Below are positions 9,490 to 41,878 of a stretch of DNA of 50,578 nt, one piece after another. The stretch covers positions 1 through 50,578 of IMG/VR virus record IMGVR_UViG_3300017763_000025; one strand, written 5' to 3'. The DNA comes from a virus. The notes under the pieces are model-generated. The model had not been told where the DNA came from and ran no database searches. It saw only the letters and a list, made by a program, of their open reading frames with translations. How positions within the stretch are numbered: position 1 is the stretch's first letter; every line of letters begins with the position of its first letter. The translations under genes and the position numbers were made by a program.

Positions 9490-9500
9490 TATTTATTTAG
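9490..9500 (-). promoter_or_regulatory. Late promoter (CTAAATAAATA)
   Basis: The minus-strand CTAAATAAATA contains two overlapping late-type boxes (CTAAATA and AATAAATA). It lies 22 bp before the ATG at 9468 and overlaps the stop codon of the giant gene. Confidence 0.6.
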
Positions 9501-12500: not shown

Positions 12501-15500
12501 TTAAAACAACATCCGGAGCACTAACATATCCTTTACCTGAATTAGTAACTTGAATTTTAGAAACTTTATCACCATTTAGATAGGCTCTTGCTGTTGCACC
12601 TGTGCCTCCGCCGCCTTCAATAGTAATAATTGGAGGTAATGTATATCTTGATCCTTCATTACTTACTGCAATTTCTTTAATTTCATATCCAAAATTCTCT
12701 AACCAATGCTTATCTGGGTAAGAACTTGTACTATTAGGTACACTTGTAATTAAATTATTAGAAACTTTTGCTGAACTACTTGTAATTTTAGATTTACTAA
12801 AGTTATATCTCGGCGGTAAATCAAAATCTGTTACAACACTATTAGTAGGATCTGTTTTTTCATAATTAGATACGTATTCTCTAATTTTTGTTTTAAATGG
12901 TTTAACTTCGTTTATATAATCTTGATAATTTTCAATACTATCATTTTTAAATGTAACTTTTTGTGCAAGGTCACCAACATTGTGTTGTGCTTTAATAAAT
13001 GATGTTTTAAATGCCCAATCAATATTTGGTTGTTCACTAAATGCATAACGTATAGTTGCAATGAACAATTCGTTATAATGTGTTTCTAAGTCATCAATTA
13101 AAATATGATCACGAATTGTTTCTAAAACTACTCTAGATTCAGTTACAGGCTGACTATCATAAAATACTGTATCAAATGTATCAATATCAAATCCTGTTTT
13201 GTTAAGTTGTGTATTATATAACTTGTCACTAAACTGGATAGTAGCACTTTGTTTGCCAATTACTTTATAGTTTTGTGTATAATCTTCTGTAGGATTATTT
13301 GCAATTTTTTCTAAAAGTAACCAGCCTCCAGAACCAACGTTAGAAATCTTTACAGTATTACCAATATCGTTTTCAATTGCTGTAAGTTGGTAACTAAAAT
13401 CAATTAAATTATTAATTTCAGTAAATTCATTGTATCCTGTTGCATACCAATCAGCATAATTCCAGTATAAGTTAGTATCAAATCTCTGACTTACAGTTCT
13501 ATTCCATGTTGTACCGTTATAATTATATAAAGACCATTTATTAGCAACATTTATATCACTTGAAACAAGTATACTAAAGTTTCTTGTAGTAAGCACTGTA
13601 TTTTCATCGTATCCTTCTCCTGGATCAATAATATTAACTGTAGTAATTTGTCCTAATTCATTAATTTCAGTTTCTACAATGGCATTTCTACCAATGCCTG
13701 ATACAGTTACTTTTGGACCTAAGCGTGTTCCGCCCACTGTTGAAACATATGTTGGATCAACATATCCTCTTCCGGAATTTGTAATTTCAACACTTGTAAT
13801 TTTACCGTCAACTATTGTAGGAGTTAACACTGCTGTAATTCTTTTAGCAACACCAACAAAAGCAAGATCTTCAAATGTATCAATTTTTACATCATAATCA
13901 CGTGAACTTGCAAATGGTGCAGGATCACTCTTAGTTAAATCACTAATATCAAATTCATCAACAATAATATTTTTTATTAAAACGTCATTTACTCTTTCAA
14001 TTAATTGCTTAAATGCTTCTGACTTATTAATAAACATCGATTGTCTTGGATTATTACTAATTCCGTATTTTGCTTTTGCACTTAATTTAGGATCTGGAAC
14101 TAATCTAAATTGTGTGTCGTAACCAATTATACTATCAAACCATTTTAATTCAATATCTCTGTTAGGTCTACTTGATCCAATACCTTGTGTTAACATTTGA
14201 TACTGATTGTGAATATTTTGAGTGTCATTGTCAAGAGTAAAGTAACGTAAATTAAATGCAACATTTTCGCCGCTCATTAATCCTTCGCAATTAAATAACA
14301 CATATCTATCTTTACCCATTAGCCCAACAAATCTATGTCCTTGACCAACTGGATCTTCAATTAATCTTGTAACATCGTATGAAGTAATACTTCTACCTGT
14401 AACATTAGGTACCACACGTTTGTTTGCTACCCAATAATAATAACGCGGCTTGCTAGTTTTAGAAATTGGATCCCATACTAAACGCTGAGAATATACAAAG
14501 TCACCGTATTTAGATTTACCACTTACTCCAGAAGCAATTCCTTGTTCTGAATCTGCTAAATTATCCCATTCGCTAGGTATTAGATCGCTTTCGACCCATT
14601 CGTATACTTGTACGCTTGTACCTGGAAATACTTCTCCCCAAAAATTAGTTTGGTAAGTTATATTGTTTTGTTGGTAGTTATAAAATTTAACTGCACTTAG
14701 ATCCCACCATAGTTGTCCTACATGTTCTCTACCCCAAGCATTAGTTTCGTCTATAATAACAGTGTCATTGCCAACACTAAATGCCGCTGGATCATAATAA
14801 GTTTTATAAGATAATTCTTGTTCTGCTGGTCCTGCAATTTTTCCTTGAACTGGATCAATAAAATCTAAATCTTCAATAAGGGTGTTAGTTTTAATGTTAT
14901 ATAAAAACGCACCTTTAATTTTATTAATATCTACTTGATCAATTGGACTTCTATGTGTGTTCCATGATTTAGAACCAATAGTTTTTCTAAAGTCAATAAT
15001 CATACCTTGGAATGTTACTAAGTCTGTCATTTCTGGAATTGACGTGTAAACATGGTTATTATTCATAACAATATTTTTACCAAAATTGATTGCTAATGGT
15101 TCGTCAATAATAAATTCTTGAGCAAATAGTAACGACTGATTAATTCTTTCGTACATAAAGATAACACCGCTATCCATGTCTGTTGATTTGAATGTTGTAA
15201 ATTCATCATCAAATACTGTTGTACGGTTATCAAATGTTGTTGGCAATTCAATATCGCCGTTGAGACTAGTAACACATAATGCATTTCCATCAAAATTTAA
15301 GTAAGCACCAAAATTTTCTGCCTGTTCGCCATTTGGACTAAACACTTCTTGTGTTAGTGTAAACTGGCCATTGACTAAAGTATAGATGTAAACTTTACCT
15401 TGATCTTTTTTCTTATCATCATTGTAAGGTTCGCCAATAGCAATCATTTCACCGTCACTACTTACACTAATACTATCACCGAATCCAGTATATGATCCAG

Positions 15501-18500
15501 TTGATAAGTCTTCATATGGAGGTTTAATAGTTTGAGATACTGTCATTTGTCCTTGTGGCAATCGTCTGTAAACTACTATAATACGTTCACCTGAACTATC
15601 ATTGCCTTGTATCCTCGAACTTACAACTAACACATCTCCATCTAAATCTTGATCAAATTTTCTTGCAAAATCTCTTACACCAAACTCTGGATCAAAGACT
15701 TCTTCACCAATAATTCTATTTGTTCCTAATGTTGGTATAAATCCAACATGTGCTGTACCGTCAGTTACTAGTTCCCAGTCAAGTGGTATAAAAGACACAC
15801 CACTTGCAATATTTCTTAGTGCTTTATAAAGTCTATCGTTATATTCTACAATCTCTCCTTGTTTATAGAATACTGATGAACTGAACGTACCTCTATAATT
15901 TGGATCTATGTCCAGTTGCCAGTTATAACTTTCTATTGCTCCATTTATAGTTGTAGCGCCATTCTTAACAAAATGTATACTACCTGCATTTGTTTGTGTA
16001 CCAGCACCTTTTGATGCAACACTTAATCTATATAAATTTCCTTCTTGTGTAAATTGTACTTCATCACCAAGTTTAGCGTATGATTTACGTTCAGGGATAG
16101 TATAATGATTTTCTACTTTAAATTTAACTTGTAGATCTAAGTCATATACACTAAACAATCCTTCCTGTATAAGTCCACTTGCTTGTGTACCATTAGCACT
16201 AGATACAGGAATATTAGTGACTAACTGCCAATCTCTGTTATTAGATGCTGGAATGTTAGCCTCTCTTGGAATACCTGCTAGTGTAGTGTTATTATAGAAC
16301 CAATATTCAAAATCAGTTAGTTCACTAATTGTAGCATCTGCAAAGTTACTTGATTCTTCTATAACAATAATTTTACCTAAACGAGTGCCTTCTAATGATA
16401 CTGCATCAATTCTAGCAAAATTACGTTTAACTGATCCTCTTACACGGAATATATCTGCTGGTTGGTTATAATTTCCACCCTTACTCCATGCTCCTGTAAC
16501 ATTTTTAACATAAATTCTTACAGTATTAAATTGTCTTTTATAAAAAGTAATTTCAGCAGTAGCACCTGTAACTGTATCTTCTACAGTGTCGCCTACAATA
16601 GGCTCAAACGGTAAAAAGTTTACTTGGTCAAATTCATCAAAAGTTAAATCAAGATATCCGTCCCATAGATCATATACTGTATGCTGTTTATTAAATAGTG
16701 CGGCATTCATTACTGTGTCAGTAAAATTAGTAGTTCCGCTTATACTATCAACTTGCATGTAAAAAGTATCACCATTTGATAAAGTATCAGTAAATGTTTT
16801 GCCGCCTCTAACTGTCCATAACGGACTACTTTGTAACGCAAATACTTCGCCTGGGTCACCTTCATATGTAAGTGTTTGTGCAAATGATGCTTGGTCATTT
16901 AAACTTAATGGTAAGTTTGCTGATAAGCCGTCTGCAATGGCTTCTTGCCTAGTGTCAGTAATATTGTAATAAAAGTTTGGTGTACTTCTGCCACTTGTTG
17001 TTGTAAGTAAATCTTGATAAACTAAACCGTGTCCTGGATCAACAAATACATTTGAACTATCAGCACTTGTAGTATATGCTGGTGTATTAATATACCAATA
17101 TCCGCCTAAGTTGCTTGTAAGACTTACATAATCTTCAGTGTAATCTCCAATACGTACTGTGCCAACAAATACACTGCCAGTTGATGCAAACGTTCCGTTT
17201 ACATCTGACAAGTACACTGTACAAGTTGTTAAGTTGTTTGCTACATAAACTACTGTGCCACTAGCAATACTACTTGAAAGTGTATCATTAATTTGTGGTA
17301 AGTTTACAAAATTTTCAATTACTAATACATTGTCTACTTTATATTCAATATTATGTGTACCTGTAATGAATGTATTATCAATTACAGGAAATTCTCCATC
17401 AAACGGTTGCACATCTGTTGAACTGCCTTGAATACTTAACTTACTATAATTGTTCCATTTTAAAACAATATCGTCGCCTACTGTACTTCCTTCGTATGCA
17501 TCTAAAGGTGCTCTTACAAGTATATGACCAACTAACCTATCATTAATTTTATAGTCACCTGCTTGTAGCAAATTAATTAATGTACTATCACTGTCTGGAA
17601 CTATATTAAGATATGAATCAAAACTATCAAACTGGATTGCACCTGTAGCAGGATCAATATTTTGAATTGCTTTATATAAATTTGGTCCATACTTTACAAT
17701 TTGACTTTTTGTATAAGGTGTACCTTGTTGGAATTCGCCTTTGTAAAAACTAAATGTATTTGATGCTTGAGGTGATCCAACTACAAGATATTTTCCATCT
17801 GGACTAAGTGCAACACTTTCTCCAAAGTTCATTGACGATGTTGGTGTACTTCCATCATAAGCATCAGCAATGTCTGTTGGTGCTTCAATAATTTGATCTA
17901 ACACAAAATTAGTATTATCATTAGGTCTTGTATAAATGTGTACTTCACCATTACCTTTAAATGGTATACCTACTGCCATTTTAGTATTAGTTCGGTTTAC
18001 GCTAATTGAATGTCCATAACCGTGTTGTGTACTATCAAGTTGTAAAGAACTTTGAACTTTTTGATGTTCTTGATATACTGGTGTGTTTTTAAGAACTGTC
18101 CATTTACCATTGTCGTCATCATCTATCCAAACAAGTTCATTAGAACTTAAATTAGCAGTAATGTTTGTATTTGCGGCATTTACTGTTGCTGTACGTTGCG
18201 TAGTAAAAATAGTAATTGTACCACTAATATCAATTGTTTCGTCAATTTCTAACCAATCCTGTTTTTCAGTCTTAAATGTTATTTTGTTACCTTGTACAAC
18301 AGTTACTTTATAAAACCCGTCAAGAGCAGTTAGAGACGCTGTATTTGCGTTTGTGATACCAAATATATCGCCTACAGCAATCTGTCTAGCAGTAAAGTTT
18401 AAAGTAAGTGTAATTTCATCACCTACAGGCTTTACTTCTTTTATTCTTAAATCAGTTTCAGTATGTTGTAAAACATTCCATGTTTGATTATCTGAAGCAA

Positions 18501-21500
18501 CCCAAATATAATCATCTTTATTCACATCACTTATATTGAAATCTATAATTCCGTCTTTTGTTAATACTGCTCTACTAACATCTTCACCTGTAACATATCC
18601 TACAGTTTTAACATATTCGTCGTTAGTATATTTGGTAGGAATTTTATTTGTATCATAATCGTTAGGCTTTAAGAACACATCATAATTTGGAATTCTGTAT
18701 ATTAAATCTGTTGATGCTGGTATAGTTTCTACCAACTCAATTGGCTGAGGAGACAATTTAAATTTAGACTCATCTAACTGCCATTCAATTTCTTCAAAGT
18801 TAGTAGTAGCACCATATTGACTATTCTTTACTGCCCATTCTTCATAAAAATCAACTGACTCTTTATCAGCACTTGCTAATGCATCAAATAATTTGTCAAC
18901 ACTGTTTCTAGTTCCTTTATCTTGAATGAATCCTTGATAAAATTTATATTGACTTACATCATCATTAATAATGTTTTCTAAATACTGACGTTTTTGATAC
19001 CCTATTAAATGCTGTGCTAAACGTTGTTGTTCGTTATCAAAATTATCACTATCAAGATCATAAAAATCAGTAAACTGATTAATTCTATAATCAAAGTTTG
19101 TAAGAAGTTTTGTTTCAGGACGACCGTCTAGTCTATTCCATTCGTCTGCTTTAAAGTTTAAATCGCCTGCAATTTTATTTTTTGCTGAATAAAAGAATTC
19201 TTTATAACGAACTGTATCGCCGATTGCATAATCTTTAAAGGATTTCCATTCCGTAACTTCTGCCTGGTCAAATACAAACCCTGGAATATTTAAACTTCCG
19301 TCCCATCCAGCAGTTCTATAACCTAAAACCTTAACACGGTCTTGTCTATATCCTGATGCAGGTGAATAAATTACATCTTTAAAGTCTGATATATTATCAA
19401 GCAAAGCAACATGTTCTATTTGAACTAAAGGTAACTGGATATAATAAATTCCTTCAGCAGTATTAGAAAGATTAACAGCAAACGTGTTGCCCTCTCTTGT
19501 AAGTCTTGTAAATGTCTGTTCTAGTGCAGTGCCGTCACTTACTTGCATTGAATAATCGTAAAAATTATCTAATAAATTGTCAACTACTGCAAATTTTCTA
19601 GTAAACTCAATTTGGTTAGCACTTGGACTTAGAGCAATAATTGTTCCTGCCGCCCAGTTTTGAGTAGTCCAAAATAAGAATTCCTTTGCACTGTATTTCC
19701 AGTCTTCAACAACACCTGTATCTGTATTAAAATAGTTGAATTCAAATCCTGCTGTTTGTAAATACTGTGCATAACCTAACAAGAAGTCTACTACATCTTG
19801 AACGTCTTCATATATTGTACCGTATGGAACTTCGCTTATGTTATCACTAAACCCTTTTCTAAATAATGCTGTAGAGCCACCGCGCATTGGTAAGTCGCTT
19901 AGTTTTACAAATTTTTCAGGATCAAAACTGTCCCCTGATGTATGCTCAACTGTAACTCTATAAAATGAATTTAGGTGTCTAACAAATTTATCTACAGTAT
20001 ATTTTTTATCAGTATCCCATTCGATAAACGATTCACTTACTCCGCCAACATTAATTGCAGGATCATTTGATTTTTTTCTAACTGTTTGTATTTTGAATAC
20101 TGGATTTGCACGGTCATATCCTTTTACTACATACCCAAAGGATTGCTTTTCTACAATTACTCCACTGTATGAAACTGTATCAATTGGTGAACTTTTATTT
20201 AGAAATATTTGATAATTTTCTTTAGGTAAAAATACATTACCTTGATTAAAAGGAGTTCTACTATCTAAAACAAATTTTAGTTTTTCTTGATCAGTAAACC
20301 CGCCTAATTTAATACCTATTTGATACTTTAAACTTTTTACTTGTTCTTTATAATCACTAGTTGATATTGCACTGTTGCCTAGTGTATAGTTTATAATATA
20401 ATCTACTAATCCACTTGTAAAAACTCTTTTAGTATCCCCATATGTATTACTAAAGACTAAACTTGCTAAAGATATTGAACGATTGGTTACATTATATACA
20501 TATTGGCCTGCTAAGTTTTTACTAATTCGTGATGTATCCCATGCTAGAGACATATATTTTGCAGGCTGATTTAGTAACTGTGATTTAACAATACTAAAAG
20601 CATAATCACTACTAGTCCTCCAAGCATTTTCTGTAGGAGCATGATCTCCAAACTTAAATCCTAATTTAGTATACGATGCAATATATTCGTTTGCAAACTT
20701 AGACTGTAACGGACTTAATAAATTACCGTCTTCGTCAACTGGAATATGATTTAACAACCCTGGTCTTTTATACTTGTCTAAATATTTTACAGGGTTATTA
20801 GGATCTGCTAATTTACCTTCTTGTAAATCTTCCCAAAGGATCAAGTTATCTGAAGTGTAAGGAGCCGCACCATACTGTGCTTCCCACCAATCAGGTTTTG
20901 TAGTTAACCCTAACATTTCCCACGGTGATGTATGTGGAGAATCAGTGTCGTATGCATGTCTATATACTGAACGCCAAAAGCCAGTTAATTGTTCGCCAGC
21001 AGGTCCTGACATATAAGAATAGTTATAAGTGAAACTATCAGTTAAATTATAGAATGTATTTGATGTATAATCTAGTCCGCCTAAACTTTCGCTCCACTTA
21101 ACAAAGTCACTTAGTAAAACATGATTAATACTGTTTAGATCAAATTTAGTATTTCTATACTTTCCTGGAATAAAATCATGTATGTCAATTTTAGTAGGAT
21201 CATATACACTTTTAATATTATTGTATATTCTACGTTCAAGATCTAAAATTAAATTATCTCGATAATCATTAAATGCAATCGTTTTACTTCCGTCGTGTCC
21301 TCTTATAATCATTGTAGGAGTTCTGTAAGTATTATCTTCATAAATTTTTGGAACGTAAGAAGGATATAATCCTAACTTACTAGGTGTACTTGGTACGTAA
21401 CAACCGTCAGTACTTTCATATTCAAAAATTTCAATTTTATCACCATCTGTTTTGGTTGCTGTAATTACAGCAAATCCATCAGTATTAAATGTATAATCTT

Positions 21501-24303
21501 CACCGTGTACTAACTGTGTTCCGTTTTGATAAATTGTTACTGCTTTATTACTTAATTGTGTTTTATTAAATGTTTGACTTAAACTAAAGAAAGTATTTTC
21601 AGTATCGTAAACTGTAAACTCTAATCTTTTATTTCCTAAAAAAGGAACCATATCACTAAAATAATACGGGTCTGTTGTTGTTTTGTCTTTTAATACTTCT
21701 TTTAAAATTCTATCAACATGTTCTTTAATTTGACCGTCGAACCCTAAATTTTCTGCTACTTGTAAAAACGATCTTTTAAAAGTTCTAAATTCTTCTTTAG
21801 CAAAATCGATTGCTTTAATTACATTTGCTTCTTTGGTAGTAATATGATAAAGAGGATTATTAATTGGTCCTGAATGTTGTACAAACTTTTTACCAACAGT
21901 ATTAATATTACCTAAATTTGCTAGGTTACTGTTTCCTGGAAATACACCACTAAATGCATCTAAATCTTCAATCATACTAAACACATGATCATTTACTTCA
22001 CCTAATGTAAAAGTAGTTAAGTTTACATTGTTTGGATTGTGTTCTAGATTAATTGGAAATTCGTAGTAACCGTTGTCATTTTTCTTAGTTGCCGACTTAG
22101 TTTTTAAAACAATATTATCACCTGTAGTTAACGGACTATTGCATACTATAAATGCTCTTCCGTCTTGTCTTAAAAGTGTATAATCATAATAATGATTGTT
22201 GTTTAAAAATACAGTAACTTTTAAGTCATTTAAATCGCCAGCCTGATCATACATGTCAATTTCAAATTGGCTAGTTTCATTAGAAACACTGTACTGTCTA
22301 ATTACTTTTTGGGTTGATAAATCTTTTGCTTTTTCCCATCCATTTTTATAAGTGAATGCATTTAATGACGTATACTTTCGTAAAAATCCTAGTTCAGTAT
22401 TAGTAGTAAATGTGTCTGTTAAACTTTGGTGTGTAAAGTTTTCTGTTAACATATCAAAGTTAAAAGTAATATCGCCTACATTAATTAATGCTCGATAAGT
22501 TAATGGAAACCCTAATTCGGTATCATTATTTCCTGTACCAACTTTATAACTAAAAATTTTGTTACCTTTAAACGTAGATGTGTTATACGTGTTAGTATCT
22601 GAATAACTAATACCGTCAGCGTCAAACATATCAAACAATGGTTGCTGGTTTACTTTAGTTTTTAATTGTCCAAGCATCCATTTAGTGCCGTTAAAGTAAT
22701 AATGCTTACCAGCATTTTCAATACCTTTTTTAACTAGTACTACTTCATTTGTTTGCGGGGTTGCATCAAGTTCTTCAATTAAAGCAATTTGACTTACAGT
22801 ACTATTATGTTTGATAAATTTTACTTTATAAATTTTACCATTTACTCTAATATCGTTATCAGCAGTAAACAAAATACGCATACCGTCAGTAATATTTTCT
22901 CCGTCAACATTAAATCCAACTGCACCTTCTACAGTTGAAAATATATCAGTTGTAAATGTATCAACTAAGTCAACGTCTTGTTTTTTTTCTGTACCAAAAT
23001 TATATAATTTAATACCACTATCAAATTCAAGAATTGGACGCTTGGCTCTTTGTGACTGATCTATTTTAACAACATCACCATTTATTTCAGCACTTTTTTC
23101 AATTACTGATTTATGATACCATTTGTTGTTTCTTGCCCAAGCATTTTTATCAGGGGAATCTCTGTTTACTACAATATAATCTTTTGTTTCACTATATGAT
23201 GCCGCATTACCAAATGGCAAACTATCAAAGTTATCACTATCAAATGCAATGGGTTTATCTTGAGAATACGCTAAAGATATCATCAACTCATCTGTATTAA
23301 CTAAACTTATATTAGTGCCTACACCTTCAACTATCCAATATCCAGTTTCATATTTTGCAGGTGTAACTTCACCTATAAAACTTAACTTCATACCATTTAG
23401 GAGTTCTACTCCTTTTGAAGTAGTGTATTGGGACTTTCCAATAATTTCTTGTTCTACATTAATTGCTGTTGCTTCATCAACTTCTGCAATTCGAATAACG
23501 CCGCCAGTATTAATATTGTTACTGTTCTGATAATATAATCTTGCTGGAGCGTTAAAGGGTACAGTAAATGTAAGTATTCCTTCTTCAATATTATCATTAC
23601 TAATACCAGTTTCAAAAATAGTGTTAGCATCAAGACTTCGTTCAGTTCGTATTGTAAACGGCATGTCAGGAGCACTTACATCAAAAGTATAAGTTTGTCC
23701 TTTGTACAATTCTATTGTAGGATTTTGTTCAAGGTTTCCGTTTATTACATAAGAAACATTATTGCCGTTTTGTATACTTGTAACTGTGTAGGTGCTTGTT
23801 ACATCTATACTTTGTCCTGCAACATTTATTGTTGATGGGCCGTTTGGCAACCAAAAGTATTCACGAAAATTAGTTAACTTGTCCCAGTTTAAATTTGGGT
23901 TCCAAGAATAATATTCTGCACCATTAAGTAAATCATGATTGTCAGTGTTTCCGCCAAATGCTTTTATTTGATTAACATAATCATTGTAATCTTTATAAAA
24001 TGTTACGTTATCATAAAGGTCTTTTGCAACAACTGATGGTTCTAATTGATAAGATTCTCTAGTGGTAGAAGTATCGCCAACATAGTTGTCAGTATTTCTA
24101 TAAGACTTTGCTGTACGTCTACCATAGTACCCGTTTAGTTTTTGTGCTGTACCTGGTTGCAATACTTGGTCAAGTGTAGCATCTAAAAACTTTTTATTCT
24201 TTTTTGTACGAAAGTATTTAGGTAATAGATTATTTGAAGCAAACTTATCGTTATCGTCTCCAACCGGTAATGGACTCTCTTTTTGGTTGTCATCGTATGC
24301 CAT
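9493..24303 (-). CDS. Giant virion structural protein, 4936 residues (baseplate gp7 position)
   Basis: One uninterrupted 14.8 kb frame, roughly 540 kDa. The ATG overlaps the gp6 stop by one base (TAATG). The N-terminus (LLPKYFRTKKNKKFLDATLD, LNGYYGRR, a YSWNPNLNWDKL block near residue 130) resembles large structural proteins of marine T4-like phages as I remember them. Four W/Y modules of the form Y..G..V.Y....Y.A lie near residues 1430, 1690, 2200 and 2815. FG-GAP-like beta-propeller blades (FGESVALSPDGKYLVVGSP, FGDSISVSSDGEMIAIGEP) lie near 2100-2170 and 2890-3010. Repeats of the type NSG.GY..P with GGGGTGATA lie near 3510-3560 and 3890-3930. From about 4060 on, many short beta modules begin DG(S/T) and are followed by V(F/Y)V.G. 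In T4 the gene after gp6 is gp7, the wedge initiator, so a wedge or peripheral baseplate/fibre role is likely. Homology to gp7 itself is not shown. Confidence 0.85.
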   Translation of the reverse strand: MAYDDNQKESPLPVGDDNDKFASNNLLPKYFRTKKNKKFLDATLDQVLQPGTAQKLNGYYGRRTAKSYRNTDNYVGDTSTTRESYQLEPSVVAKDLYDNVTFYKDYNDYVNQIKAFGGNTDNHDLLNGAEYYSWNPNLNWDKLTNFREYFWLPNGPSTINVAGQSIDVTSTYTVTSIQNGNNVSYVINGNLEQNPTIELYKGQTYTFDVSAPDMPFTIRTERSLDANTIFETGISNDNIEEGILTFTVPFNAPARLYYQNSNNINTGGVIRIAEVDEATAINVEQEIIGKSQYTTSKGVELLNGMKLSFIGEVTPAKYETGYWIVEGVGTNISLVNTDELMISLAYSQDKPIAFDSDNFDSLPFGNAASYSETKDYIVVNRDSPDKNAWARNNKWYHKSVIEKSAEINGDVVKIDQSQRAKRPILEFDSGIKLYNFGTEKKQDVDLVDTFTTDIFSTVEGAVGFNVDGENITDGMRILFTADNDIRVNGKIYKVKFIKHNSTVSQIALIEELDATPQTNEVVLVKKGIENAGKHYYFNGTKWMLGQLKTKVNQQPLFDMFDADGISYSDTNTYNTSTFKGNKIFSYKVGTGNNDTELGFPLTYRALINVGDITFNFDMLTENFTHQSLTDTFTTNTELGFLRKYTSLNAFTYKNGWEKAKDLSTQKVIRQYSVSNETSQFEIDMYDQAGDLNDLKVTVFLNNNHYYDYTLLRQDGRAFIVCNSPLTTGDNIVLKTKSATKKNDNGYYEFPINLEHNPNNVNLTTFTLGEVNDHVFSMIEDLDAFSGVFPGNSNLANLGNINTVGKKFVQHSGPINNPLYHITTKEANVIKAIDFAKEEFRTFKRSFLQVAENLGFDGQIKEHVDRILKEVLKDKTTTDPYYFSDMVPFLGNKRLEFTVYDTENTFFSLSQTFNKTQLSNKAVTIYQNGTQLVHGEDYTFNTDGFAVITATKTDGDKIEIFEYESTDGCYVPSTPSKLGLYPSYVPKIYEDNTYRTPTMIIRGHDGSKTIAFNDYRDNLILDLERRIYNNIKSVYDPTKIDIHDFIPGKYRNTKFDLNSINHVLLSDFVKWSESLGGLDYTSNTFYNLTDSFTYNYSYMSGPAGEQLTGFWRSVYRHAYDTDSPHTSPWEMLGLTTKPDWWEAQYGAAPYTSDNLILWEDLQEGKLADPNNPVKYLDKYKRPGLLNHIPVDEDGNLLSPLQSKFANEYIASYTKLGFKFGDHAPTENAWRTSSDYAFSIVKSQLLNQPAKYMSLAWDTSRISKNLAGQYVYNVTNRSISLASLVFSNTYGDTKRVFTSGLVDYIINYTLGNSAISTSDYKEQVKSLKYQIGIKLGGFTDQEKLKFVLDSRTPFNQGNVFLPKENYQIFLNKSSPIDTVSYSGVIVEKQSFGYVVKGYDRANPVFKIQTVRKKSNDPAINVGGVSESFIEWDTDKKYTVDKFVRHLNSFYRVTVEHTSGDSFDPEKFVKLSDLPMRGGSTALFRKGFSDNISEVPYGTIYEDVQDVVDFLLGYAQYLQTAGFEFNYFNTDTGVVEDWKYSAKEFLFWTTQNWAAGTIIALSPSANQIEFTRKFAVVDNLLDNFYDYSMQVSDGTALEQTFTRLTREGNTFAVNLSNTAEGIYYIQLPLVQIEHVALLDNISDFKDVIYSPASGYRQDRVKVLGYRTAGWDGSLNIPGFVFDQAEVTEWKSFKDYAIGDTVRYKEFFYSAKNKIAGDLNFKADEWNRLDGRPETKLLTNFDYRINQFTDFYDLDSDNFDNEQQRLAQHLIGYQKRQYLENIINDDVSQYKFYQGFIQDKGTRNSVDKLFDALASADKESVDFYEEWAVKNSQYGATTNFEEIEWQLDESKFKLSPQPIELVETIPASTDLIYRIPNYDVFLKPNDYDTNKIPTKYTNDEYVKTVGYVTGEDVSRAVLTKDGIIDFNISDVNKDDYIWVASDNQTWNVLQHTETDLRIKEVKPVGDEITLTLNFTARQIAVGDIFGITNANTASLTALDGFYKVTVVQGNKITFKTEKQDWLEIDETIDISGTITIFTTQRTATVNAANTNITANLSSNELVWIDDDDNGKWTVLKNTPVYQEHQKVQSSLQLDSTQHGYGHSISVNRTNTKMAVGIPFKGNGEVHIYTRPNDNTNFVLDQIIEAPTDIADAYDGSTPTSSMNFGESVALSPDGKYLVVGSPQASNTFSFYKGEFQQGTPYTKSQIVKYGPNLYKAIQNIDPATGAIQFDSFDSYLNIVPDSDSTLINLLQAGDYKINDRLVGHILVRAPLDAYEGSTVGDDIVLKWNNYSKLSIQGSSTDVQPFDGEFPVIDNTFITGTHNIEYKVDNVLVIENFVNLPQINDTLSSSIASGTVVYVANNLTTCTVYLSDVNGTFASTGSVFVGTVRIGDYTEDYVSLTSNLGGYWYINTPAYTTSADSSNVFVDPGHGLVYQDLLTTTSGRSTPNFYYNITDTRQEAIADGLSANLPLSLNDQASFAQTLTYEGDPGEVFALQSSPLWTVRGGKTFTDTLSNGDTFYMQVDSISGTTNFTDTVMNAALFNKQHTVYDLWDGYLDLTFDEFDQVNFLPFEPIVGDTVEDTVTGATAEITFYKRQFNTVRIYVKNVTGAWSKGGNYNQPADIFRVRGSVKRNFARIDAVSLEGTRLGKIIVIEESSNFADATISELTDFEYWFYNNTTLAGIPREANIPASNNRDWQLVTNIPVSSANGTQASGLIQEGLFSVYDLDLQVKFKVENHYTIPERKSYAKLGDEVQFTQEGNLYRLSVASKGAGTQTNAGSIHFVKNGATTINGAIESYNWQLDIDPNYRGTFSSSVFYKQGEIVEYNDRLYKALRNIASGVSFIPLDWELVTDGTAHVGFIPTLGTNRIIGEEVFDPEFGVRDFARKFDQDLDGDVLVVSSRIQGNDSSGERIIVVYRRLPQGQMTVSQTIKPPYEDLSTGSYTGFGDSISVSSDGEMIAIGEPYNDDKKKDQGKVYIYTLVNGQFTLTQEVFSPNGEQAENFGAYLNFDGNALCVTSLNGDIELPTTFDNRTTVFDDEFTTFKSTDMDSGVIFMYERINQSLLFAQEFIIDEPLAINFGKNIVMNNNHVYTSIPEMTDLVTFQGMIIDFRKTIGSKSWNTHRSPIDQVDINKIKGAFLYNIKTNTLIEDLDFIDPVQGKIAGPAEQELSYKTYYDPAAFSVGNDTVIIDETNAWGREHVGQLWWDLSAVKFYNYQQNNITYQTNFWGEVFPGTSVQVYEWVESDLIPSEWDNLADSEQGIASGVSGKSKYGDFVYSQRLVWDPISKTSKPRYYYWVANKRVVPNVTGRSITSYDVTRLIEDPVGQGHRFVGLMGKDRYVLFNCEGLMSGENVAFNLRYFTLDNDTQNIHNQYQMLTQGIGSSRPNRDIELKWFDSIIGYDTQFRLVPDPKLSAKAKYGISNNPRQSMFINKSEAFKQLIERVNDVLIKNIIVDEFDISDLTKSDPAPFASSRDYDVKIDTFEDLAFVGVAKRITAVLTPTIVDGKITSVEITNSGRGYVDPTYVSTVGGTRLGPKVTVSGIGRNAIVETEINELGQITTVNIIDPGEGYDENTVLTTRNFSILVSSDINVANKWSLYNYNGTTWNRTVSQRFDTNLYWNYADWYATGYNEFTEINNLIDFSYQLTAIENDIGNTVKISNVGSGGWLLLEKIANNPTEDYTQNYKVIGKQSATIQFSDKLYNTQLNKTGFDIDTFDTVFYDSQPVTESRVVLETIRDHILIDDLETHYNELFIATIRYAFSEQPNIDWAFKTSFIKAQHNVGDLAQKVTFKNDSIENYQDYINEVKPFKTKIREYVSNYEKTDPTNSVVTDFDLPPRYNFSKSKITSSSAKVSNNLITSVPNSTSSYPDKHWLENFGYEIKEIAVSNEGSRYTLPPIITIEGGGGTGATARAYLNGDKVSKIQVTNSGKGYVSAPDVVLNGSVEDGGTIASAKAVLGNGKVRGTHIISRFDRISGNPYYLEVTRQEVFTGDNATSVYDLKWPMNLNGAKVKIFISGVELLKSEYTISNFEDNIKGYTRKRGRIVFQVPPKLNIGLTIQYELAPDLLTAQDRVQTYYKPIDGMIGKDISQLMMGVDFGGVEVKSFDFAGVGGFETKGFGVEPYDIYDTTFEDIIFYLDGSTAELTWEQPLETGVVYNVYKNNVRLDDANYPSNPTNPNAVMSSIIGDGALTSINIQNFGITSKDDDIFVLRKSTSDGSFKPDPASYDTQLTGGALSYSNAKGIDASEIIVDGDGFITPMTTTGPEELVPGKISDTVDIKIFHRPDDGTSNIQTQFFTTDGIQQTFTTGVHPFNSEAVFVTLDNVRTTDYTINYVTDTLTFTTPPTAGKVLSIVTLGVNGQKILDINHLTADGSTNTYTTNIKYQEGVSHYVYLNGVINSSTLSEGSNGNFVITFGSAPQAGNDIHYGLFYTTATNFSATNVQTLVGDGSTTVFDVNPALVGGLPTAQNAIVEVNNNILDAGYNVDFTITDATIREYQIQEWQFFSNSVRGEDIEVYLNDQILVKNIQYRWDSANNSVKLSAGIGAVDDRLDIFFSIDGQYAFGYVGTGADSTTRFLQDRSKIYFDTAPGLGESIRITSFSNHDIQDFERIKYNLVSRVPLVPGTTNYKEYITFSNGLVKLRHKAQDSEYVWVILNGVRLAPNIDYYVTENQMYVKIIQQLNPNDKVEYIQFGEEQLTHRFGYRQFKDILNRVHYKRLDNANKYKLAQDLNWWDTRIELVDASDLPEPGKKKQIPGVVFINGERIEYYVKQGNSLRQIRRGTLGTGVNALIASGTEVRDQSPGENIPYMDQTLTQVFTADGTTASYELDFTPTQGINEFEVFVAGHRLRKNAISSYQVDTKDTSGNFVTRFIAQDSAEGDVTLPVDFTLNGSTLELTATPEADQKVTVIRRVGQTWTKAGISLADEENDIAQFLKARTTELPK

Positions 24304-37284: not shown

Positions 37285-38295
37285 GTGTTTAAAAAAGCGG
37301 CTGTCTTTACTGACATTCATCTTGGCCTAAAAGGCAATAGTAAAGTACATAACGATGATTGCGAACGTTTCGTAGATTGGTTCATTGAACAAGCAAAGGC
37401 CAATAACTGTGAAACAGGTATCTTTTGTGGCGACTGGCATCATAATAGAAACAGTTTAAATCTTACAACCATGGATGCAACAATACGTTGTATGGAAAAA
37501 TTAGGTAGTTCATTTGAAAAGTTCTACTTCTTTGATGGTAATCACGACTTGTATTATAAAGATAAGCGTGATGTAAACTCAACTGCATTTGCTACATACA
37601 TTCCTGGTATTACTTTTATTGATGAAATATATCAAGAAGAAGATGTTGCACTAGTCCCTTGGTTAGTAGGAGACGAATGGAAGAAGATGAAGGACATTAA
37701 AACAAAGTATATGTTTGGTCACTTTGAACTTCCTAGTTTTTATATGAACGCTATGGTACAAATGCCTGATCATGGGGAACTAAAGAGTGAACATTTTGTA
37801 AATCAAGAATATGTGTTTAGTGGACATTTCCACAAACGACAAAAACAAGGTAAAGTACATTACATTGGTAATGCATTCCCACACAACTATGCAGATGCAT
37901 GGGATGACGATCGTGGGATGATGATTCTCGATAGAGAAAACAATAAAGAACCAGAATATTTAAGTTGGAGTGATTGTCCTAAGTATCGAACAACTACACT
38001 TAGTCAACTACTAGATCCTAATCAGGACATTATTAAAAGTAATATGTACCTACGTGTTACTATCGATGTTCCAATTAGTTACGAAGAAGCACAATTTATT
38101 AAAGAAACGTATATTACACAATATAAGTGTAGAGAAATTACATTAATCCCGCAAAAACAAGTCGAAGAAATTAGCACCGACTTAGATATTTCAACTTTTG
38201 AAAGTGTTGATGAAATTGTATCTAAAGAAATTACAGCAATTGATTCGGATAACTTTAACAAGAAAATGCTATTGGACATCTATAACGAACTATGA
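37285..38295 (+). CDS. 47: Recombination endonuclease subunit gp47 (Mre11/SbcD-type)
   Basis: A 336-residue protein. The start is GTG at 37285, with AGGAG 9 bases before it; no better ATG exists near the conserved N-terminus. All calcineurin-like phosphoesterase motifs are visible: D10-x-H12 in FTDIHLG, GDWHH at 49-53, GNHD at 85-88, FGHFE at 144-148 and the GHFHKRQ at 180-186. These bind two Mn ions in Mre11/SbcD nucleases. With gp46 it processes DNA ends for recombination-dependent replication and host DNA breakdown. The gene overlaps gp46 by 4 bases (ATGA), as in a coupled pair. Confidence 0.96.
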   Translation: MFKKAAVFTDIHLGLKGNSKVHNDDCERFVDWFIEQAKANNCETGIFCGDWHHNRNSLNLTTMDATIRCMEKLGSSFEKFYFFDGNHDLYYKDKRDVNSTAFATYIPGITFIDEIYQEEDVALVPWLVGDEWKKMKDIKTKYMFGHFELPSFYMNAMVQMPDHGELKSEHFVNQEYVFSGHFHKRQKQGKVHYIGNAFPHNYADAWDDDRGMMILDRENNKEPEYLSWSDCPKYRTTTLSQLLDPNQDIIKSNMYLRVTIDVPISYEEAQFIKETYITQYKCREITLIPQKQVEEISTDLDISTFESVDEIVSKEITAIDSDNFNKKMLLDIYNEL

Positions 38296-40064
38296 TACGT
38301 ATTAAAGACCTGACCGTAAAAAACTTTATGAGCGTGGGGAATCAAACTCAGGCTGTTGACTTTAACAAAGAACAATTAACACTTGTGCTAGGTGAAAACT
38401 TAGATCAGGGTGGTGATGACAATGGATCACGTAATGGTACAGGTAAAACTACTATTATTAACGCTCTAAGTTATTCATTATACGGTGTAGCGTTAACAAA
38501 TATTAAACGCAACAACTTAATTAACAAAACTAATAGCAAGGGCATGTTAGTTTCACTTGATTTTGAAAAAGATGGCATTGATTATCGTATTGAACGAGGA
38601 CGGTCGCCCAATGTACTAAAGTTTTATATCAATAATCAAGAACAGGAAATGTTAGACGAGTCCCAAGGCGATAGTCGTAAGACGCAAGCAGATATTAATG
38701 ACCTATTAGGTATGAGTCACGATATGTTTAAACATATTGTTGCATTAAACACTTACACAGAGCCTTTCCTTAGTATGCGACAAAATGATCAACGTGCTAT
38801 TATTGAGCAGTTGTTAGGTATTACTATTCTTAGTGAAAAAGCAGATACTTTAAAAGATCAAGTTCGGCAGACTAAAGAAACCATTATACAAGAAACATTA
38901 AAGATTGAAGCAATACAAACAGCAAATAGCAAGATCGAAGACACTATTTCTAGTTTGCAAGGAACCCAACGTGCTTGGCTTGCTAAGAAGCAACAAGACA
39001 TTAGTAAACTAGCATCTGCTATTGATGAGTTAGAACACTTAGATGTTAATATTGAATTAGAATCACATGAAAAACTATCTAATTGGAATGAACATAACAA
39101 TGCTATTTTGGCTCTTAAAAAAGAATTAAGCACATTAGAGCCAGCACTACAACGTGCTGAGAAGTCTGTAGAAAAGGCAACTAAAGACATAACAAATCTT
39201 GAAGATGCTACTTGTTATACATGTGGACAAGAACTACACGCAGATAAAAAAGCAGAACTACAAACACGTAAAGAAAAAGAATTAGATGAAGCAATTGACT
39301 ATCGATCAGAGATTGCTAAAAAAGTAGATGACGTTGTTAAAGGTCTTGATGACATTGGTGATATCAATGGCAGACCTACTACTTACTATGAAACAGCAAA
39401 AGAAGCATATGAGCATAGACAAAATGTTGATAGTTTAAAAACTGCTTTACAAAATAAACAAGACGAAGAAGATCCTTATCAAGCACAAATTAACGAGTTA
39501 AACACATCAGCAGTACAAACTATAGACTGGACACCTGTTAATGACTTAACTAGTTTCAAAGAACATCAAGAGTTTTTATTAAAACTGTTAACAAACAAAG
39601 ATAGTTTTATTCGTAAGAAGATTATTGATCAAAACTTAGCATACTTAAACAATAGACTTACATATTACTTAGACAAACTAGGATTACCACATCAAGTTGT
39701 ATTCCAAAACGATTTAAATGTTGAGATTACACAACTAGGACAAGACTTAGACTTTGATAACTTGTCACGAGGTGAACGTAATAGACTAATACTTGGTATG
39801 AGTTTTGCATTTAGAGATGTTTGGGAAAGTCTATATCAAAATATTAACTTATTGTTTATTGATGAATTAATTGACAGTGGTATGGACACTGCTGGTGTCG
39901 AAGGATCATTAGCAGTTCTTAAGAAGATGGGCAGAGAACGCAACAAAAATGTATTTCTTATCTCGCATAAAGACGAGTTAATTGGTAGAGTCAATCATTT
40001 GATGAAAGTAGTTAAAGAAAATGGATTTACTAGTTACGAAAATGACATAGAGATAGTAGATTAA
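38292..40064 (+). CDS. 46: Recombination endonuclease subunit gp46 (Rad50/SbcC-type ATPase)
   Basis: A 590-residue protein starting MIRIKDLTVKNFMSVGNQTQ. The Walker A is GENLDQ...NGTGKTT at residues 34-54, with the insert typical of phage gp46. A coiled coil runs from about 180 to 300, the zinc hook CYTCGQ is at 308-313, and a second coil follows. The ABC signature LSRGERNRLILGMSF lies near 490-505, the Walker B is LLFIDEL near 525, and the late His is in LISHKDE. It pairs with gp47 in a Rad50/Mre11-like complex. It overlaps gp47 upstream and the next small gene by one base (TAATG). Confidence 0.96.
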   Translation: MIRIKDLTVKNFMSVGNQTQAVDFNKEQLTLVLGENLDQGGDDNGSRNGTGKTTIINALSYSLYGVALTNIKRNNLINKTNSKGMLVSLDFEKDGIDYRIERGRSPNVLKFYINNQEQEMLDESQGDSRKTQADINDLLGMSHDMFKHIVALNTYTEPFLSMRQNDQRAIIEQLLGITILSEKADTLKDQVRQTKETIIQETLKIEAIQTANSKIEDTISSLQGTQRAWLAKKQQDISKLASAIDELEHLDVNIELESHEKLSNWNEHNNAILALKKELSTLEPALQRAEKSVEKATKDITNLEDATCYTCGQELHADKKAELQTRKEKELDEAIDYRSEIAKKVDDVVKGLDDIGDINGRPTTYYETAKEAYEHRQNVDSLKTALQNKQDEEDPYQAQINELNTSAVQTIDWTPVNDLTSFKEHQEFLLKLLTNKDSFIRKKIIDQNLAYLNNRLTYYLDKLGLPHQVVFQNDLNVEITQLGQDLDFDNLSRGERNRLILGMSFAFRDVWESLYQNINLLFIDELIDSGMDTAGVEGSLAVLKKMGRERNKNVFLISHKDELIGRVNHLMKVVKENGFTSYENDIEIVD

Positions 40065-40261
40065 TGACTGACGACACACACGATCTATTAACGAAAGCAT
40101 ATATGGAGTATTTTAAGGAAAACGAAAACTTTGAAAATCGTTTATCTTACAGGACCCACCGAGCAAGCCGGAAATGCCTCAGAGAGATACGCAGATTGAG
40201 TAAATTACGTATGGACGAGATTAACGAAACGTTCAAAACCAAGATCGAGGCAGAAAAATAG
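40064..40261 (+). CDS. Small conserved phage protein of unknown function
   Basis: A 65-residue, strongly helical and charged protein: MTDDTHDLLTKAYMEYFKEN, then FENRLSYRTHRASRKCLREI and RRLSKLRMDEINETFKTKIE. It starts on the last base of the gp46 stop (TAATG), so its translation is probably coupled. Small proteins of this type follow gp46 in T4-like marine phages as I recall. The Arg-rich helix would suit nucleic acid or protein binding, but no motif proves this. Confidence 0.7.
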   Translation: MTDDTHDLLTKAYMEYFKENENFENRLSYRTHRASRKCLREIRRLSKLRMDEINETFKTKIEAEK

Positions 40262-40281
40262 AAGGCACGGTAAGTAAGTTC

Positions 40282-40731
40282 ATGCAGTGGACTTATGAAG
40301 GAAAAACAATAGATGAAATACCAGATGAGTATGAAGGTTTTGTTTATCTAATTACAAATACCACTACAGGCCAAAAATATATAGGCAAGAAACTAGCAAA
40401 ATTTAAAACTACTAAGCCACCACTTAAAGGCAAAAAAAATAAAAGACGTGGAAAAAAAGAAAGCGATTGGAAAGATTACTGGGGATCCAGTGACAGACTA
40501 AACGCAGACGTTGCACAACTAGGCGAAAACAAGTTTACAAGAGAAATATTATACCTATGTAAAGGTAGGGGCGAAATGTCCTATATAGAGGCAAGAGAAC
40601 AGTTTGATAGGCGTGTACTTGAAACTGATGATTACTATAACGGTATCATTAATGTTAGAGTAGGCGGATCAGACAAACTCAAACAGGCATTGCTAGAACA
40701 AAATATCAAGGCAAAACAATCTAACACCTAA
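40282..40731 (+). CDS. GIY-YIG nuclease-like protein
   Basis: A 149-residue protein. After a short leader (MQWTYEGKTIDEIPDEYE) comes GFVYLITNTTTGQKYIGKK at about residues 19-37, matching the GIY-YIG catalytic strands as FVY...YIG. A Lys-rich loop, a YWGSSDRLNADV segment, FTREILYLCKGRGEMSYIEA and a C-terminal YYNGIINVRVGG follow. GIY-YIG enzymes cut DNA, as in UvrC or phage homing endonucleases. The context (after gp47/46) suggests repair or recombination, but the next 490 bases hold a structured RNA, so a mobile-intron link is also worth testing. There is no C-terminal DNA-binding domain of the usual homing type. Confidence 0.75.
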   Translation: MQWTYEGKTIDEIPDEYEGFVYLITNTTTGQKYIGKKLAKFKTTKPPLKGKKNKRRGKKESDWKDYWGSSDRLNADVAQLGENKFTREILYLCKGRGEMSYIEAREQFDRRVLETDDYYNGIINVRVGGSDKLKQALLEQNIKAKQSNT

Positions 40732-41071
40732 GGTTGGCGGGCCAGTTTACAAATACCGCTGAGAAAAAGGTCCCGTGATAAGGACACTCGTACACGTTGA
40801 GCCGCGTCCGGTAGTAGGGCGGCAGGATTGATGTAGATTGACTGTTAGCAATCGAAAAACACAACACAGTTCATAAAAACTCTTTAGCAATAGGAACGAA
40901 GCGAGAGGTAGCGTAAGCGATGTCGACGTAGGTTGGGAAAGGTCAGAGCCCATTGAACTAAGTGTATAAACAATTACCTACTTCCGAATCTCGGCTGTGA
41001 CGGACTCACATGAAGTGTCAAGATTAGATGGAACCAGCGATTAGGTTCCGTCTGACTGAAACAATCTACAT
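40732..41071 (+). ncRNA. Candidate structured non-coding RNA (unassigned family)
   Basis: No credible reading frame lies here. By hand count, 320 bases from 40731 are about 47% G+C, clearly above the AT-rich neighbours. Perfect helices can be drawn: long-range 40831-40840 with 41062-41071 (10 bp), 40801-40805 with 40819-40823 (GCCGC/GCGGC), 40928-40933 with 40976-40981, 40934-40937 with 40949-40952, 40984-40987 with 40991-40994, 40996-41000 with 41006-41010, and 41026-41035 with 41044-41053 (10 bp with one G-U). The long-range helix encloses the last five. A competing small hairpin (40836-40840 with 40849-40853) could unfold it. I could not match it to tmRNA, RNase P RNA, 4.5S RNA, a group I or II intron core, or a tRNA. 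Ends are approximate. It is probably transcribed with the gp47-46 operon. Confidence 0.7.
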
Positions 41072-41081
41072 GAAGCAATTA

Positions 41082-41110
41082 CAATATTACTTCGTAATAT
41101 TGCTTTAATT
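41082..41110 (+). terminator. Terminator-like hairpin after the structured RNA
   Basis: CAATATTAC (41082-41090) pairs perfectly with GTAATATTG (41094-41102) around a TTC loop and is followed by CTTTAATT. The stem is AT-rich and the T run short, so it may be weak or may protect a 3' end instead. Confidence 0.55.
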
Positions 41111-41165
41111 CATATCTACTGCTTTAATCAAAACGAAGTGTTAAGTTTGAGTGTTAACGAAAACT

Positions 41166-41194
41166 TATATCTACGGAGTAGATATACTAAATAC
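41166..41194 (+). promoter_or_regulatory. Late promoter CTAAATAC with an abutting 9-bp inverted repeat
   Basis: CTAAATAC (41187-41194) lies 25-32 bp before the ATG at 41219. Directly upstream, TATATCTAC (41166-41174) and GTAGATATA (41178-41186) form a perfect inverted repeat around GGA. The repeat may be an operator, an activator site, or an RNA hairpin ending upstream transcripts. TATATCTAC also lies at the same 20-base offset before the late octamer at 50159. Confidence 0.55.
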
Positions 41195-41218
41195 ATACAA
41201 CTGTTAAAGGACTTTAAA

Positions 41219-41878
41219 ATGAACATTCACGAAATAATTTTAGAAGATTCACAACTTAATGAAAAACCTACTAGTAGTATTGGCAATTTTGCTAAAAAAG
41301 TAGCAAGTAAAGTAACTACTGGTGGTGTAAGTGCTAGATTAGGCGGATCAAGCGAAGTTGGATCTAAAGCAAACGCAATTTACAAAGATCTTGCTAGATG
41401 GCAAGGCATTAATAGCAAAAACGATAAAAATATGACTTCCGCTGATTTATCAGCGTTTATGAAGCAACATAAATTAAGTGCAGGCGGGATGCAGTTGCCC
41501 GATGGTGTACTTACAAAATCGATAATTGATAAAGTCTTAAAGAAAGCGGCCGCAAGTGATTTAACAGGCGGCAATGTAGGTACTGATCCAGCACCAAAAG
41601 CACAAGGCGGTGGCAGTGCTCCATCACAAGGCGGAGTTGCAGGAGCAATGGCGTCGATGGCTAAAGGCGCAGGTGTAAAGGCTCCACAAACAAAAGGGCA
41701 ACAAGCACAAGCGGCAGGACAACCTACTACAGATAAACAAGCAGGTGGTTCTCCGGCACAAGCACCAGGTGCAAAAGTTGCACCACTAAAGAATAAACAA
41801 GGTATTCCACCAGAAGTTCAAACAATGTTAGATAAACTTACACCGACTGAGAAAAAAGCATTGGCAGGAGCAATATAA
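41219..41878 (+). CDS. Ala/Gly/Gln-rich protein with capsid-targeting-like N-terminus
   Basis: A 219-residue protein. I chose ATG at 41219 (MNIHEIILEDSQLNEKPTSS) because the frame's upstream ATG at 41138 lies before the late promoter, while AAAGGA precedes 41219. The first 16 residues resemble the T4 capsid-targeting sequences of Alt and the internal proteins, with I-L-E and L-N-E matching the (L/I)-x-E site of prohead protease gp21. Then comes a mixed domain (KAIYKDLARWQ-like helix, about residues 50-110). A low-complexity Gly/Ala/Gln/Pro tail and a closing helix (IPPEVQTMLDKLTPTEKKAL) follow. It is coupled to the next gene by TAATG. It may be a packaged internal protein; homologues are not known to me. 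Confidence 0.65.
   Translation: MNIHEIILEDSQLNEKPTSSIGNFAKKVASKVTTGGVSARLGGSSEVGSKANAIYKDLARWQGINSKNDKNMTSADLSAFMKQHKLSAGGMQLPDGVLTKSIIDKVLKKAAASDLTGGNVGTDPAPKAQGGGSAPSQGGVAGAMASMAKGAGVKAPQTKGQQAQAAGQPTTDKQAGGSPAQAPGAKVAPLKNKQGIPPEVQTMLDKLTPTEKKALAGAI

Follow-up and report, generated by a model that had tools for sequence, protein, structure and literature searches.

The 50,578-base virus record analysed here (the window, meaning the whole stretch of DNA) carries a single copy of a structured RNA at 40732-41076 on the + strand, directly after the gene for a small GIY-YIG nuclease. We favour, with moderate confidence, the reading that it is an independent noncoding RNA gene of large phages with T4-type recombination, belonging as class A to a family that includes Polynucleobacter-1, and that it would act in trans. 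An earlier, sequence-only reading had proposed a functional structured RNA after the GIY-YIG gene, and this is borne out by covariation in 51 homologues, with 11 helices. It had also called the element undescribed, which holds in that class A falls into no Rfam family but fails for the wider family, which includes RF01718 (Polynucleobacter-1). The RNA body starts right after the gene, as had been proposed, although a conserved leader in front of it overlaps the end of the gene. The parts of the RNA gene are as follows.

40709..40731, + strand, conserved leader with consensus AGGCAAAaCAaTcCAaCACaTAA, overlapping the 3' end of the nuclease gene (106 distinct upstream stretches)
40732..41076 (local positions 1-345), + strand, structured RNA body (147 unique full-length homologues; covariation)
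41082..41110, + strand, terminator-like hairpin (41082-41102) and T-rich tail, predicted from the sequence

The region is richer in GC than the whole window (46.7% versus 34.8%) and has no coding signal, in agreement with its first description as GC-rich and gene-free. No convincing gene was found in it, the longest internal ORF being one of 68 aa on the minus strand. A conserved reading frame, raised beforehand as the finding that would contradict an RNA, was looked for in 146 homologues: 1117 of their 1334 indel runs relative to the window sequence are not multiples of three. The mean longest stop-free stretch is 78.8 aa in homologues versus 69.0 aa in shuffles. The folding energy of the window RNA is unremarkable (z -1.30; 9 of 100 shuffles fold equally well), so the single sequence alone is no proof of an RNA, and it is conservation and covariation, not folding energy, that demonstrate one.

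The leader is conserved in the 106 distinct upstream stretches, which the overlapping nuclease coding sequence could explain. Among 15 class A loci with a spacer between gene and RNA, 12 retain a leader of about 23 nt in a GGCAAA...CACATAAGG-like form; L156, L167 and L185, which also have a spacer, retain its last third alone. The terminator-like hairpin was found where the sequence-only reading had placed it, after the RNA, and in the homologous loci displayed the RNA is likewise followed by hairpins, of differing sequence. Past the terminator, at 41135-41166, lies a AGTTTGAGCGTTAGCGAAAACT-like hairpin that recurs downstream of homologues in many phages.

Homologues were collected from IMG/VR through the GIY-YIG protein (best 80 of 597) and through one 16-mer and two core patterns (for the core patterns, among the matches listed), and the RNAs were sorted into class A, that of the window, and classes B, C and D. 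In a profile scan, 288 of 299 records (among the matches listed) carry one RNA copy, a count that takes in overlapping records of the same contig; the unique full-length RNAs number 147. The remaining 11 records comprise nine 16-mer matches that fit no profile and look like chance, one contig cut 24 nt past the GIY-YIG gene, and one record of Methylophilales phage Melnitz, in which the nuclease is present in another place and the RNA is absent. IMG/VR contigs from the protein search (best 80 of 597) often end at most about 150 nt after the GIY-YIG stop, as if assemblies broke at the conserved part of the RNA. The class A core has 0 exact matches in 84,980 species genomes. Against cultured phages, blastn gave chance matches only for the class A RNA and none at E<=0.1 for one class C and one class D RNA, class B being outside this search.

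Covariation among homologues, named at the outset as a check on the RNA, is very strong in the alignment of the 147 unique full-length copies (effective number 74). A separate alignment, made of 51 homologues, contains 11 helices with 55 pairs; 98.1% of their cells are paired, which upholds the earlier expectation of many helices. Two-sided changes occur in 27 of the 55 pairs, a level that 0 of 500 shuffles equal, and sliding the helix partners by 1-3 columns lowers the pairing to 35-40%. The helices are listed below.

40736..40760, + strand, hairpin 1, 40736-40740/40756-40760; two-sided change in 2/5 pairs
40761..40789, + strand, hairpin 2, 40761-40763/40787-40789 with inner 40770-40772/40783-40785; two-sided change in 4/6 pairs
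40794..40834, + strand, helix 40794-40799/40829-40834 around a length-variable stem; two-sided change in 3/6 pairs
40836..40853, + strand, hairpin 40836-40840/40849-40853; two-sided change in 4/5 pairs
40868..40959, + strand, long helix 40868-40873/40954-40959, enclosing most of the core; two-sided change in 6/6 pairs
40880..40907, + strand, hairpin 40880-40884/40903-40907, its loop with nearly invariant AGGAACGA; two-sided change in 4/5 pairs
40908..40918, + strand, length-variable stem from the alignments, 11 nt here and far longer in some relatives
40925..40981, + strand, interleaved core in the order a-b-c-a'-c'-b', from the class A and class B alignments
40925-40927/40942-40944, + strand, core helix a; two-sided change in 1/3 pairs, in 2 sequences (class A)
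40928-40933/40976-40981, + strand, core helix b; two-sided change in 2/6 pairs, both from L062 alone (class A)
40934-40937/40949-40952, + strand, core helix c; two-sided change in 0 pairs, nearly invariant (class A)
41027..41052, + strand, 3' hairpin 41027-41035/41044-41052, between 7-mer repeats; 99.1% of cells paired, two-sided change in 1/9

These alignments establish the fold: hairpins form the 5' domain, a pseudoknotted core with interleaved helices comes next, and the 3' hairpin has matching 7-mers on either side. One inner pair of hairpin 2 is unpaired in 14 of the 51 homologues, and the pair with the strongest covariation in the whole RNA (z 23) lies in the long helix, which helix b crosses. 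Additional support for core helices b and c appears to come from class B, where reading by eye gives b as GCAGGT/ACCTGC and ACAGGT/ACCTGT and c as AGG/CCT. Class A members with GIY-YIG proteins only 59-73% identical to that of the window still have nearly invariant core motifs.

A 10-bp helix enclosing the domain (40831-40840/41062-41071) had been proposed earlier, together with a competing 5-bp hairpin (40836-40840/40849-40853) and a switch between two states. The long-range helix can be drawn in the window sequence, yet 0 of its 10 pairs changed two-sidedly in the 51 homologues, and all 500 shuffles equalled its share of cells paired. The competing hairpin is in fact the conserved structure, with two-sided change in 4 of 5 pairs. 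Since the long-range helix fails covariation and the local hairpin passes, the switch is unsupported; both the long-range helix and the switch were rejected on the covariation of these 51 homologues.

At six positions in the 51 homologues G-U is the commonest pair, a pattern that fits the + strand RNA rather than its complement or DNA. Selection on strand structure in a DNA element, be it an origin or a recombination or homing site, might be suggested by the direct 7-mer repeats around the hairpin and by the adjoining recombination genes, but such an element is exceedingly improbable, given the G-U pairs and the helices kept over 345 nt.

The Rfam search of the window gave zero matches to the RNA, and none at E<=5 within 40262-41250. 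The sequence-only reading had recognised none of the large known RNAs in it and had pointed to Rfam as the check; with the search run, the window RNA has no covariance-model match to GOLLD, ROOL, HEARO, IMES or other Rfam families. The crossing of the long helix with helix b is presumably like that of P3 and P7 in group I introns and, with the GIY-YIG neighbour, might indicate a ribozyme that splices or cleaves itself, such as a group I-like intron whose ORF is the nuclease. We consider this very improbable, because no Rfam family matches even at E<=5, an additional hairpin lies between the supposed P7 and P3 strands, and the downstream gene is not conserved (only 37 of 140 records have a homologue less than 1 kb away) while a terminator follows the RNA, which leaves no conserved exon pair. 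The group I intron was rejected on the Rfam result at E<=5 and the unconserved downstream gene.

The genes upstream of the RNA are the following.

37285-38295, gp47, named by position and by the likeness of gene order to PA5oct rather than by a family search
38292..40064, + strand, gp46/SbcC-like recombination ATPase (phrog_77, E 8.2e-100)
40064..40261, + strand, 65-aa ORF between gp46 and nuclease, without Pfam or PHROG match; homologue in 236/256 records with >800 nt upstream
40282..40731, + strand, SegE-type GIY-YIG nuclease of 149 aa (Pfam PF19835, E 3.4e-36, residues 3-123)

By its SegE-type GIY-YIG domain (PF19835), the product of 40282-40731 would be a free-standing homing endonuclease. 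Its relatives in INPHARED and PHROGs (phrog_447) are often annotated as 'NAD synthetase', which looks like a propagated error. A motif pattern that proved too strict is matched by 198 of 268 of the GIY-YIG proteins, and in 8 the aligned part contains a stop. Elsewhere in the window, a single ORF of 4936 aa occupies 9493-24303 on the minus strand.

The order gp46, nuclease, RNA is widely kept. Of the 228 class A records with room, 211 have gp46 no more than about 1.2 kb upstream of the nuclease, and 17 have it at another place on the record; in class D it lies within 2.8 kb upstream in 74/75 (among the matches listed). The GIY-YIG gene is immediately upstream of the RNA in 249 of the 271 class A records with the RNA 5' end present, further upstream in 15, and unseen in 7, each with <100 nt upstream. 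When loci were found by RNA pattern, all 140 with at least 700 nt upstream (among the matches listed) had a same-strand GIY-YIG gene within 700 nt; these are 115 distinct loci and overlap with contigs also found through GIY-YIG. Divergent loci were sought with a gp46 profile scan (best 80 of 590). The core model matches the RNA in 11 of these 80 at E<=0.0017, 10 of them after a GIY-YIG gene, and many others have a long ORF-free gap in the same slot, with RNAs of other sequence. In this gp46 set (best 80 of 590), an RNA of some class follows in 53 of 57 GIY-YIG loci with >500 nt after the gene; of the 53, 16 supplied profile seeds, L312 and L374 lie on class A contigs, L331, L339 and L341 have the RNA 654-1598 nt away, and some of the class D matches counted are partial (E as high as 0.005). 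L347, L367, L387 and L390 have the GIY-YIG gene and room, yet no RNA at E<=0.01. Where the GIY-YIG gene is inverted, the RNA is inverted too, in 7/7 loci, 65-86 nt after it, and none of these were seeds.

Class D contigs found by RNA pattern alone all carry the RNA (120/120 among the matches listed). Where there is room, the GIY-YIG gene is directly upstream in 99/107, 1.8 kb away in L443, and missing in seven (among the matches listed). In nine loci of 4 lineages (these seven, L482, L488, L499, L425, L483, L493 and L512, plus L384 and L391), a PDDEXK_15 nuclease replaces GIY-YIG between gp46 and the RNA. PF24608 was matched in L482, L384, L391 and L512, and the other loci were assigned by near-identity; the nucleases of six of the nine are 96.5-100% identical. 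No PDDEXK_15 relatives were found in the other loci of three sets (288, 80 and 120). PF19835 is absent from the nine PDDEXK_15 contigs, which are fragments of 14-81 kb, and PF24608 is absent from 7 GIY-YIG contigs of 103-282 kb, while 4/4 PDDEXK_15 contigs match it; the two nucleases never occur together on any contig tested for both. The pattern looks as if equivalent nucleases had replaced one another, or homing nucleases had succeeded one another at a single site; the constant part of the slot is the RNA. We show that it has been kept beside this slot after gp46 through deep protein divergence.

Such a position could also be that of a cis-acting 3'-UTR element of the nuclease mRNA or of the whole recombination mRNA, blocking 3' exonucleases or sensing a ligand and so setting the nuclease level. 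The RNA follows the nuclease directly in 249/271 class A records and 99/107 class D loci (the latter among the matches listed), a terminator follows the RNA, and the table entry for Polynucleobacter-1 in PMC2864571 carries a cis-regulatory 'y' and a riboswitch '?'. However, some loci have other ORFs, read by eye, or promoter-like sequence between nuclease and RNA, the distance in L443 is 1.8 kb, and an unrelated nuclease can replace GIY-YIG while the RNA stays. We regard the 3'-UTR element as possible but doubtful. An RNA gene with a role of its own is the reading we prefer, because the RNA persists at loci with a swapped, inverted or distant nuclease.

Two copies of a 7-mer flank the 3' hairpin.

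41008..41014, + strand, repeat copy 1, ACATGAA in the context ACTC-; both copies agree exactly in 98% of the 147 homologues
41068..41074, + strand, repeat copy 2, ACATGAA in the context ATCT-, from the repeat comparison

Class A has the pattern ACTC-NNNNNNN and ATCT-NNNNNNN with the same 7-mer, which differs between phages, although ACATGAA is found in 107/147 class A RNAs. Among 12 distinct 7-mer pairs in class A, 83% are exact versus 10% when shuffled (largest shuffle 50%). In a listing of 29 RNAs from all classes, the script ranked the expected repeat first for 23, and another or none for six. In class D, 7-mers were parsed in 70/94 loci and gave only 4 distinct pairs; with shuffles able to reach 1.00, little can be concluded from class D by itself. 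What is kept is identity, not complementarity. For 26 RNAs, no complement of the 7-mers was found in cis (mean best match 6.15 versus 5.93 for swapped repeats), and the window has no excess of copies, with 5 matches including the two RNA sites against 5.8 expected. That two 7-mers stay alike while changing between phages is unusual, and they would be two sites for one partner in trans.

Could that partner be the small nuclease itself? The RNA would then belong to a DNA cutter that is guided by RNA or depends on it and whose catalytic domains can be swapped, one folded RNA serving either GIY-YIG or PDDEXK_15 and the 7-mer pair giving sequence specificity. The near-constant linkage, the shared inversion and the paired variable 7-mers are compatible with this, as is a GIY-YIG protein with little beyond its catalytic domain (residues 3-123 of 149); the slot holds either nuclease in 106/107 class D loci with room (among the matches listed), the exception being L443 with its GIY-YIG 1.8 kb away. 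Against this, one RNA would need to be bound by two unrelated folds, the 7-mers vary little within a class (107/147 ACATGAA), and adjacency is more simply explained by genetic linkage or homing. We judge both the nuclease partnership and the specificity it would draw from the 7-mers improbable. Being exchangeable, the nuclease is probably not the obligate binding partner of the RNA.

Class D is Rfam RF01718, Polynucleobacter-1, matching with up to 118 bits. A targeted search of 19 records with RF01718 matched two, L351 and L348, both class D, and gave no match in the window, in the class A, B and C records tried, or in L365 or L353; the window RNA does not reach the gathering threshold. Rfam searches of relatives gave no match in two sets of 7 loci each, and in other relatives only RF01718 exceeded its cut-off, two other families lying far below theirs. 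The link between the window RNA and RF01718 was made through bridging sequences and a shared 3' module. Using class-profile E-values that come from small databases and are hence lenient, the B profile detects class A (5e-21), the C profile detects class D (1.5e-10), and the 3' module joins B and D (B profile versus D 4.5e-5; D profile versus B 1.6e-4). The D profile reaches class A at 6.8e-4 for L150, the next best of 147 being only 0.19, and reaches L369 (5.8e-6) and L384 (5e-4) with matches partly over the terminator. Class A and RF01718-type profiles do not detect each other over the whole length. A chain of profiles nevertheless leads to RF01718-positive RNAs, classes A-D occupy the same genomic slot, and the core order a-b-c-a'-c'-b' is found in class A and class D. 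Among 67 sequences, class D shows strong covariation of its own, with the same order of core helices (239-243/269-273, 253-256/286-289 and 259-263/275-279), the matching of helices between classes being our reading. Membership of the window RNA in a wider family that includes RF01718 is thus well supported by the bridge, the slot and the helix matching.

Taken together, the RNA is probably an old phage RNA gene in a nuclease-RNA cassette, acting in trans. It may come off the nuclease transcript as its 3' part, or be made from its own promoter. A sigma70-like promoter, TTGACA-17-TATACT, starts 94-105 nt upstream in L266, L163, L247 and L287, and 4/168 upstream stretches score this well versus 1/168 when shuffled, a small excess. 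The transcript would end at the terminator, fold, and act in trans as a scaffold, with both 7-mers read together by one sequence-specific partner, a protein or an RNA, that differs between phages. As for the small nuclease, it may serve the operon in recombination or junction cutting, or be a homing nuclease retained next to a conserved target.

Among cultured phages, the core model R1 gave only matches that we take as chance (best E 0.05) in the whole genomes of Phosso, PA5oct, Atu_ph07, Melnitz and AG-345-L05. Phosso and PA5oct have PDDEXK_15 near gp46 with structured gaps nearby. In Pseudomonas phage PA5oct (L300:8868-9250; z -7.55) and Sinorhizobium phage Phosso (L299:8420-9110; z -2.97, 20 shuffles), these are unannotated structured stretches near gp46 and PDDEXK_15. 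Run on the gp46 regions of Phosso, PA5oct and Atu_ph07, the class profiles reach no better E than 0.34, so the PA5oct and Phosso gaps are only candidate relatives of the window RNA. PA5oct is culturable and may offer a laboratory system if its structured stretch proves related.

PMC12286853 presents GOLLD and ROOL as large, structured RNAs of phages and prophages whose function is unknown, with a 659-nt ROOL and a >800-nt GOLLD as examples. The window RNA is likewise a large structured phage RNA, but it is shorter than these examples and has no Rfam match, and, as a further difference, the window has no tRNA gene. T4 SegB is a free-standing GIY-YIG nuclease beside a tRNA gene region, engaged in intronless homing (PMC2988022), and segB has recently been linked to the amplification of anti-defence genes (PMC13096335). 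The window locus shares with it a free-standing GIY-YIG nuclease beside structural RNA genes; unlike at SegB, the RNA of this family is not a tRNA and the nuclease can be PD-(D/E)XK. The HEARO and OMEGA RNAs of IscB and TnpB are noncoding RNAs adjoining a nuclease gene. By contrast, the window RNA has no Rfam match and no long variable guide was seen in it, and its neighbours are small, unrelated nucleases.

The closest known relative is Polynucleobacter-1, RF01718. The entry in Weinberg et al. 2010 (PMC2864571) marks it as probably an RNA, with a 'y' for cis-regulatory and a '?' for riboswitch, and this was the only paper on RF01718 or Polynucleobacter-1 found in the literature searched; among the papers listed on structured RNAs of jumbo phages or on RNAs next to GIY-YIG genes, with few subscription papers included, none describes the window RNA. 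The RF01718 model (141 nt) covers the 5' part only and does not detect the window RNA, and class A has its own loop sequences and a long helix without a clear equal in class D. Both RNAs share the slot after gp46 and a small nuclease, the interleaved a-b-c-a'-c'-b' core, the 3' hairpin with paired 7-mers in a 3' module related by profile and, in our reading, the 5' hairpin. A one-line table entry of 2010 thereby becomes a broad family of pseudoknotted RNAs of about 350-450 nt in large phages, tied to a nuclease slot beside recombination genes.
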